NCBI GenBank assembly: GCA_029260345.1
Contig: JAJDDK010000001.1
Location: forward strand, 124,001-188,000
Reading direction: 5' to 3'
From: Phycisphaerales bacterium
GTDB lineage: Bacteria > Planctomycetota > Phycisphaerae > Phycisphaerales > UBA1924
DNA: 64,000 bases
Positions within the stretch are counted from its first letter, which is position 1; every line of letters begins with the position of its first letter. Made by a program: the position numbers and the translations under genes. Below are positions 10,370 through 11,920 of this stretch, one piece after another. The notes below the pieces were generated by a model that saw only the letters and a program-made list of their open reading frames with translations, ran no database searches and was not told the origin of the DNA.

Positions 10370-11065
10370 TCACCGGCGACCGCGCGCCCTCGGGCGACGA
10401 CCACCAACCGGCTCCTGCTCGACGACTTCGCCGAACATGCCCCGGAAAATCCAGACCTTGACGCCGATGGCGCCATAGGTCGTGAACGACTGCGCAAATC
10501 CGTAGTCAATGTTGGCCTGCAGCGTCGAGAGCGGAAGGCGCCCAAGTCGCGTGTCGAGGCGGCGGCTCATTTCAGCGCCGCCAAGACGGCCGGCAATGAG
10601 GATACGCACGCCGAGCGCGCCGTTCTGCATGGACGCATCAGCTCGCATCTTCACGACGCGGCGGAAGCTCGCCCGCTTCTTCAGCTGTTCGGCGATGCCT
10701 TCGGCGACAAGCTGAGCATTGACGTCCGGGTTCTTGATTTCATTGATCGCGATCGACACCTTGCGACCGGTCAGGTATTGCAGCTCTTCGGTCAGGCGGT
10801 CCACTTCGGCGCCCTTGGGGCCGATGACTAGGCCCGGCCGAGCCGTCGACACGATGACCTTCAGCTCTTCACGCGTGCGCTCGATGTGAATATCCGAGAC
10901 CGCAGCGAAAGGCGGCGTGCGATTCAGCCGCTTGTCGACGAATTCGCGGATGCGGTAATCCTCGACCAGCAGTTCGCCGTAGAGCGCCTTGGGGGCGTAC
11001 CAGCGGCTCTTGTGCTGCTCGGTGATTCCGACACGAAAACCGTACGGATGGATTTTCTGTCCCAT
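10370..11065 (-). CDS. rpsC: 30S ribosomal protein S3
   Basis: Small-subunit head protein at the mRNA entry tunnel, with a KH domain. Evidence: MGQKIHPYGFRVGITEQHKS at the N-terminus; the KH region around VSTARPGLVIGPKGAEVDRL; GALGVRILIAGRLGGAEMSR and GVKVWIFRGM in the C-terminal domain. It has 231 residues, a normal size, with a basic tail (GGRRPRARGRR). The start ATG overlaps the rplV stop by one base (TAATG), so the two are probably coupled. Confidence 0.97.
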   Translation of the reverse strand: MGQKIHPYGFRVGITEQHKSRWYAPKALYGELLVEDYRIREFVDKRLNRTPPFAAVSDIHIERTREELKVIVSTARPGLVIGPKGAEVDRLTEELQYLTGRKVSIAINEIKNPDVNAQLVAEGIAEQLKKRASFRRVVKMRADASMQNGALGVRILIAGRLGGAEMSRRLDTRLGRLPLSTLQANIDYGFAQSFTTYGAIGVKVWIFRGMFGEVVEQEPVGGRRPRARGRR

Positions 11066-11610
11066 TACGCCGCCTCCTCAACACCGAGGACGATGTGGCT
11101 GGTGCGCTTCTTGATCGGGAACGCGCGGCCGCGATCCTTTGGCTGGAAACGCTTGATGGTTGGTCCGCCGTCGATGCGTGATTCGGCAACGACGAGTTTG
11201 CTGACGTCCGCCTCAGACTGCTCCGCGTCGGCGATTGCCGTCTTGAGCGCCTTGAGGATCATGGACGCAGCGCGCTTGTGATTGAATTCCAGAAGCGTCA
11301 TGGCCTCGTCCACCCGTCGCCCGCGGATCAGGTCCGCCATCAGGCGAGCCTTGCGGGAGCTGGAGCGGATAAAGCGCACCTTGGTCTCGAAGCGGGCGAA
11401 CTCGGCCGGGCGGCACGAGCATGCTTCGGCGATGGCGCGAATGTCCTGCGCTTTGGCGCGCGGGTGATTGCGAGCCGCCAGCCAGTTGGAGACGGCGGAC
11501 TGCGCTTCGCGGTCGTCGAGGCCGGGGCGGGAGACCGCCTTGGCCAGCGAATCCGTCGTCGCGCCGGCGCCGGCCATCTTTCGCTTCAATTTGTCAGCGT
11601 TGATCTTCAC
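11065..11610 (-). CDS. rplV: 50S ribosomal protein L22 with an N-terminal helix-turn-helix-like extension
   Basis: L22 lines the exit tunnel through its beta-hairpin. The L22 core spans about residues 72-181: VRFIRSSSRKARLMADLIRG, LLEFNHKRAASMILKALKTA, VVAESRIDGGPTIKRFQPKD and RAFPIKKRTSHIVLGV. The first 70 residues are extra. They resemble a lambda-repressor/Xre-type HTH: a helix at LKRKMAGAG, then DSLAKAV, then AVSNWLAARNHPRAKAQDIR and AIAEACSCRPAEF, which recalls the usual recognition helix and following helix. The chosen start is a GTG without a strong Shine-Dalgarno; the ATG at codon 12 is the only other candidate noticed and would still keep most of the extension. Total 181 residues against about 110-115 for the family. 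Confidence 0.94.
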   Translation of the reverse strand: MKINADKLKRKMAGAGATTDSLAKAVSRPGLDDREAQSAVSNWLAARNHPRAKAQDIRAIAEACSCRPAEFARFETKVRFIRSSSRKARLMADLIRGRRVDEAMTLLEFNHKRAASMILKALKTAIADAEQSEADVSKLVVAESRIDGGPTIKRFQPKDRGRAFPIKKRTSHIVLGVEEAA

Positions 11611-11638: not shown

Positions 11639-11920
11639 TCACTTCGACTTGACGCCTTCCTTCTTGTTGGTGTGCCCGCGGAACATTCGCGTCGCCGAGA
11701 ACTCGCCGAGCTTGTGCCCGACCATGTCCTCGGTCACGAACACCTCGAGGAATGTGCGCCCGTTGTGCACCTGGAACGTGTGCCCGACGAACTCGGGAAC
11801 GATGGTGCAGCGACGAGCCCATGTCTTCATCGGCGTGCGCTTGTTCTGCTGATTCTGGCGCTCCACCTTGAGGTAGAGGCTTTCATCAACAAACGGGCCT
11901 TTTTTCAGCGATCTCGCCAT
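11639..11920 (-). CDS. rpsS: 30S ribosomal protein S19
   Basis: Small-subunit head protein that pairs with S13. Evidence: [20 protein letters not shown] at the N-terminus, [20 protein letters not shown] and [20 protein letters not shown], ending [12 protein letters not shown]. It has 93 residues, exactly as expected. It lies between rplB and rplV in the standard S10-operon order. Confidence 0.97.

Follow-up and report, generated by a model that had tools for sequence, protein, structure and literature searches.

A 64,000-nucleotide stretch of a Phycisphaerales genome (contig JAJDDK010000001.1; hereafter "the window") carries an S10-type ribosomal protein operon in which the reading frame for ribosomal protein L22 begins well upstream of the conserved L22 core. 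A preliminary description of this DNA had proposed that the extra residues resemble the lambda-repressor/Xre-type helix-turn-helix (HTH) of transcription factors. We asked whether this extension belongs to the protein, what kind of domain it forms, how it came to be distributed among related bacteria, and what such a domain might do on, or off, the ribosome.

An additional domain at the front of L22

The rplV gene lies between rpsS and rpsC, its usual place in the S10 operon (Table 1), and a genome search found a single L22 in the source genome. Pfam identified seven of its neighbours, encoding S19, S3, L16, L29, S17, L23 and L4. The rpsS stop codon is at 11639-11641, leaving 28 nt before the rplV GTG, exactly as first described, and rpsC overlaps the 3' end of rplV by 1 nt. 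Most of the protein is ordinary bacterial uL22: Pfam Ribosomal_L22 (PF00237) matches residues 77-176 (E = 1.3e-33), and the score against NCBIfam TIGR01044 is 110.1 bits, above the equivalog cut-off of 73.65. Unlike other proteins of these families, however, the window L22 has about 74 further N-terminal residues that are predicted to form a folded domain. Among the 50 L22 chains listed in a structural comparison, 43 align from model residue 70-73, one from residue 66 and six from residues 25-48; hence, about 71-74 residues are additional to standard L22, which agrees with the initial estimate of about 70. NF008917, a fusion of L22 with an unknown domain, is likewise an L22 with an added part, but the window L22 scores only 62.6 bits against that model, far below its cut-off of 526. 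Chloroplast uL22c also has added segments, but the excerpt of PMC5071890 that describes them mentions no repressor-like domain. Our searches of open-licence literature listed no paper whose title or abstract opening describes an L22 with a repressor-fold N-terminal domain.

Table 1. Positions in the window of rplV, the parts of its product and the adjacent genes
Feature	Coordinates	Strand	Details and basis
rplV, L22 with predicted N-terminal Cro/C1-like domain	11065..11610	-	181 aa, GTG start
N-terminal extension, residues 1-74, predicted Cro/C1 repressor-like fold	11389..11610	-	AlphaFold2, Foldseek, VIA
Helix 1 of extension, residues 5-15	11566..11598	-	AlphaFold2 model
Helix 2 of extension, residues 19-26	11533..11556	-	AlphaFold2 model
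Helix 3 (recognition-helix position), residues 33-44	11479..11514	-	AlphaFold2 model and conservation; includes N42 and W43
Helix 3-helix 4 loop, residues 45-53	11452..11478	-	AARNHPRAK in the window; contains the longest low-entropy run of the extension (46-53)
Helix 4 of extension, residues 54-64	11419..11451	-	AlphaFold2 model
Ordinary bacterial L22, residues 75-181	11068..11388	-	Pfam, NCBIfam; VIA Z 16.4-18.3 against ribosomal L22 chains
rpsS (S19), upstream neighbour	11639..11920	-	Pfam
rpsC (S3), downstream neighbour	10370..11065	-	Pfam

Structure prediction of the N-terminal residues had been suggested as a check on the HTH proposal. AlphaFold2 gave confident models both for the full protein (pLDDT 92.6, pTM 0.82) and for residues 1-77 alone (mean pLDDT 92.9, pTM 0.78), the latter forming a Cro/C1-like domain of four helices. 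One strand of the model covers residues 72-81 and runs the extension straight into L22 without a linker. Foldseek placed HEPD/PhpD first (E = 0.022), followed by P22 c2, C.AhdI, C.BclI and 434 Cro (probability 0.99, TM about 0.6); the list consists mostly of Cro/C1-type regulators together with HEPD-like enzymes, and every E-value is above 0.001. VIA aligned 459 chains, and the 50 listed are proteins that we take, from their titles and general knowledge, to have the Cro/C1 fold, with Z of 7.3-9.1, although Z below 8, or below about 13 for helical bundles, may reflect merely a common arrangement. Examples are C.Csp231I (9.1), HEPD (8.9), P22 c2 (8.4) and SinR (8.3), and the XRE-type regulators P22 c2, 434 Cro, SinR and C.Csp231I together span Z 7.5-9.1. 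These searches also showed the same fold in HEPD/PhpD, MPnS, HppE and cyanase, which are metabolic enzymes unrelated to ribosomes and are not known to use it on DNA.

Sequence profiles match the window copy weakly and its relatives better. The window extension reaches Pfam HTH_31 at E = 0.018 (15.8 bits, under the curated cut-off of 27 bits) and NCBIfam carph-isopro at E = 0.0022, also under the curated cut-off; a profile search with residues 1-77 returned no family at E <= 0.01, and a PDB sequence search with the extension returned no match. Among 38 rows of relatives, at E <= 0.01, HTH_31 was matched by 20 (best 7.7e-7), HTH_26 by seven and HTH_3 by three, so that the profile match named beforehand as a test was found in relatives. 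Among 20 rows from a third clade of bearers (see below), at the same threshold, HTH_3 was matched by ten (best 1.9e-6) and HTH_31 and HTH_19 by eight each, and phage transcription-regulator families matched up to 12 of these 20. None of 20 shuffled sequences made from the 38 matched any family. PDB searches with extension profiles gave weak and mixed results (best E 0.051, and 0.0039 to an HTH protein). Since structure comparison and sequence profiles agree, we conclude that the extension, as modelled, is an HTH in the sense of the Cro/C1 (lambda repressor-like) fold. Thus, the original proposal holds at the level of fold, whereas the match of the window's own sequence is weak.

Conservation within the domain is uneven. 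Most relatives preserve what we take to be the XRE pattern, a tryptophan followed by glycine at +3 and proline at +7 after helix 3; in the window, +3 is alanine. Among the 60 rows whose extension is 77 residues long, W43 and P50 never vary and the run 46-53 has an entropy of 0-1.35 bits, its commonest form in relatives being GRDHPRCK. Helix-3 positions 34, 35 and 37, which we assume from the helix pattern to be exposed, and position 32 just before the helix are among the most variable in the same rows (2.7-3.0 bits). In DNA-binding HTH regulators of the XRE type, helices 2 and 3 are joined by a short, tight turn; judged by eye, the turn in the extension is longer than the usual XRE spacing by about 7 residues in the window, by about 4 in a related family (f4) and by more in some sequences. 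The net charge of the extension averages +5.0 over 78 genes (range +1 to +11; +6 in the window).

Start codon of the extension and selection on it

We compared gene starts in 78 distinct genes from the window's family (f1), f4 and named Phycisphaerales records. The start codon of the extension occupies the same aligned codon in all 78 (GTG in 61, ATG in 17), an agreement beyond chance even though GTG makes up 469 of 1053 valine codons within these genes; all 20 genes fetched from the third clade have ATG at this place. Ahead of the extension start, anti-Shine-Dalgarno energy averages -6.1 (n = 77), compared with -3.4 at 780 random in-gene places, and the window's own GTG has a weak value of -3.3. 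The extension would be an annotation artefact if L22 truly began near its core and the upstream frame were untranslated. Some start codon does occur from 14 codons before to 5 codons after the core boundary in 54 of the 78 genes, with an energy of -6 or below at 18 sites in 14 genes; however, no single internal position holds one in more than 18 genes, and the amino acids of the extension are conserved among relatives. We therefore regard an artefact as having next to no chance of being correct.

The extension is more variable than the core (mean entropy 1.61 and 1.19 bits, respectively), and its substitution pattern depends on the distance at which genes are compared. Among the 15 pairs with the lowest extension dS, six close pairs have an extension dN/dS of 0.03-0.32; the other nine, all distant (extension dN 0.38-0.69), have values of 0.80-1.76. 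Of the 1447 usable pairs, 73 have an extension value of at least 1, and the medians are 0.59 (extension) and 0.44 (core); distant pairs are saturated, and we gave them little weight. In a single f4 genome (G075), a frameshift interrupts the extension between helices 2 and 3; this may be a sequencing error or a real loss. Taken as sequence evidence, these comparisons indicate that the L22 extension of about 74 residues is real, and it is presumably translated in the cell.

Distribution and history

In 101 genomes, comprising the window's own and its relatives, 97 gave an L22 match. All 58 matches in f1 start at query residue 14 or earlier, and five of the six f4 genomes match from residue 1-2, the sixth being the frameshifted G075; the remaining 33, in f2, f3, f5 and f6, begin at residue 50 or later. 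We extended the search to 397 genomes sampled across the class, of which 378 have an L22 match. A profile built from f1-type extensions, with 14 first-look candidates scored in most genomes, matched 138 genomes, one of them (G073) solely in an unrelated ORF; such a search may overlook an extension that has diverged strongly. With family counts crossed by hand, nine families have the extension in all of their 137 genomes with an L22 (f1, 44; f4, 3; f13, 7; f18, 5; f20, 24; f23, 41; f24, 11; f26, 1; f27, 1), and elsewhere it is present in 0 of 241. The absence from close relatives that would have spoken against the original proposal was thus not seen. The rpsS stop and the L22 core lie 228-337 nt apart in all 36 bearers compared, against 24-134 nt in all 38 genomes lacking the extension and 8-93 nt in all six outgroups, a spacing that argues against overlooked diverged extensions. 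We also considered decayed remnants in families without the extension and rejected them, since the 24-134 nt gap leaves no room for one in any of the 38 genomes.

All 20 third-clade matches that were fetched read through into the L22 core, and 87 of 90 genomes of this clade score at least 40 bits with the f1 profile. The other three score 39.6, 32.6 and 26.4 bits, so that the weakest members overlap the non-L22 matches (30.5, 25.4, 23.9, 22.0 and 21.4 bits). Three of those five, when read, were named by eye as a Cas3-like helicase, a CinA-like protein and a membrane protein, while frame length was the sole criterion for the two in G622 and G017. Outside the class, a phylum sample of 392 genomes gave just two matches, in frames of 912 and 664 residues, the first of which was read and is not L22. 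The few non-L22 matches in both samples look like chance. No free-standing relative of the extension was found in the window's own genome at E <= 10.

Bearers with names (37 of 80 loci) are recorded as Phycisphaerales, Phycisphaeraceae, Phycisphaerae and Planctomycetota MAGs, apart from two that are labelled otherwise; the third clade may be Sedimentisphaerales. One record is named Leptolyngbya sp. PLA1 (locus L083), and its extension is nearly identical to that of a Phycisphaerales MAG (L080); judging by this sequence, the name is probably wrong. L22 cores of the third clade are longer by about three residues immediately ahead of the conserved KDRGRA stretch, which we take to be the tunnel-hairpin region of L22.

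A quick tree built from eight further S10-operon proteins of 80 genomes has bearers in three places, namely f1, f4 and a third clade uniting f13, f18, f20, f23, f24, f26 and f27 (SH-aLRT 99), and the supported branches force at least three changes in extension presence. Placing all bearers in one clade was rejected (p-AU 1.4e-7; 35-genome subset, simpler model), whereas uniting f1 with f4 was compatible with the data (p-AU 0.088; 31 genomes). With the L22 core alone, one clade of all bearer cores gave p-AU 0.176 and one of f1 and f4 gave 0.662, the tree so constrained being even the better one, but the core is too short to decide; for the same reason, the core trees could not say whether whole L22 genes had been transferred between lineages. 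The extension profiles of f1 and the third clade match each other (hhalign E = 5e-26), and this, together with the scores of at least 40 bits in 87 of 90 third-clade genomes, disfavours independent fusions of unrelated HTH domains. Median extension-to-core distance ratios between clades (1.39-1.69) resemble those within f1 (1.65) and within the third clade (2.03), the value within f4 being 3.15 (three pairs, G075 left out); these ratios are soft because identities saturate. Thus, the bearer lineages are separate, yet their extensions look from these sequence comparisons like one family, and the fusion seems old, being either ancestral with many losses or spread by early transfer. A viral or phage source found no support: viral contigs searched with the A1 profile gave no relative and 25 pattern matches, none confirmed, and phage records searched with the window extension gave no match.

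Possible roles of the domain

We favour the view, to which we assign a probability of roughly 0.55, that the extension is a reused repressor fold acting as a ribosome-bound accessory domain, probably in contact with rRNA, and not as a gene switch. On this view, an ancestor of part of the class gained a Cro/C1 repressor-type domain by in-frame fusion to the L22 start, and the large ribosomal subunit would have retained it as a permanent addition. Because the model has no linker before the first L22 strand, the domain should sit rigidly on the globular part of L22, and would then lie close to the tunnel exit, on the outer side of the subunit. In E. coli, four proteins, uL22 among them, surround the exit site, according to the excerpt of PMC5071890. 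The conserved loop and the variable helix-3 positions suggest a fixed contact made by the loop and no operator-reading helix: a basic face, consisting mainly of the loop that follows helix 3, may bind rRNA or a neighbouring ribosomal protein, and this contact might aid 50S assembly or stability.

The eukaryotic and archaeal factor Mbf1/EDF1, in which an N-terminal Mbf1 region precedes the HTH, provides a comparison. Mbf1 is a separate factor on the small subunit and no part of a ribosomal protein, whereas the extension is fused to the front of L22 and thus differs from an Mbf1 protein. Nevertheless, the Cro-type HTH of yeast Mbf1 works on the ribosome, contacting rRNA and connecting 18S h33 with h16 and h18 (excerpt of PMC8040806), and is a precedent for a ribosome-bound repressor fold. 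Mbf1 is said, in the excerpt of PMC3062615, to be absent from Bacteria.

Several observations weigh against our preferred reading. Closely related families live without the extension, so a subunit can work without it. DNA binding is what most HTH domains do, and it is a possible role here too. The weak HTH match of the window copy, the absence of any Foldseek E-value reaching 0.001 and the high dN/dS of the nine distant lowest-dS pairs also count against it. Furthermore, we aligned 33 23S rRNA genes with that of E. coli in 25-base bins, 16 from genomes with the extension (8 f1, 4 f4, 4 third clade) and 17 from genomes without it, two of the genes (G000, G064) being cut at the 3' end, and no indel follows the extension; at this level of comparison, we reject a 23S helix lost or gained in compensation. 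The alignment revealed other features of these rRNAs. The region around E. coli 1451-1500 is shortened alike in f1, f4 and the extension-less f2, and not in third-clade genomes. About 290 extra bases near 1851-1876 in G117 (L329) are a possible intervening sequence, about 450 near 1176-1200 in G170 (L348) a possible intron or intervening sequence, and about 310 near 526-550 in G067 (L328) could reflect an insertion or faulty assembly.

It is possible, though distinctly less probable than rRNA contact, that a domain near the tunnel exit serves as a docking platform, recruiting a lineage-specific factor that acts on nascent chains, in membrane targeting or in ribosome hibernation. The exit-site position of uL22 would suit this role, as would the helical surfaces of the domain, which lend themselves to protein contacts, but nothing in our analysis points to a partner gene. 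We consider it somewhat less plausible still that L22 is an autoregulator, with free protein in excess binding S10-operon DNA or mRNA through the extension and repressing the operon. Autoregulation by ribosomal proteins is well known, the extension has a repressor fold, the third-clade extensions match phage repressor families, and repeated absence from sister families would fit an accessory regulator. On the other hand, the palindromes upstream of rpsJ in 11 genomes of the family include no common one, a weak comparison made by eye with at most four listed per genome, and the long turn between helices 2 and 3, the variable helix-3 positions and the missing linker make DNA binding or autoregulation by the extension look less likely. 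Of the two roles first suggested, we therefore prefer the structural addition over regulatory binding of DNA or RNA.

A bolder form of the regulatory idea, which we rate as doubtful and slightly below simple autoregulation, is that the large subunit carries a working repressor-type domain that reads DNA or RNA, so that L22, free or assembled, would link the supply or position of ribosomes to the chromosome. Finally, the fused domain might be a dispensable relic kept by inertia with little function, as its absence from many families and the broken copy in G075 could suggest. The absence of any loss among the sampled genomes of the nine bearer families, and the low dN/dS of the six close pairs, make this improbable.

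Ribosomal proteins are known to gain tails, but a whole repressor-fold domain on a universal core protein, in many families, is unusual. The L22 extension offers a natural case for studying how the ribosome can reuse a DNA-binding fold, parallel to eukaryotic Mbf1, and its patchy distribution across sister families opens its role to comparative study. The extension also calls for care when L22 starts are annotated, and is a marker for the lineages that bear it.
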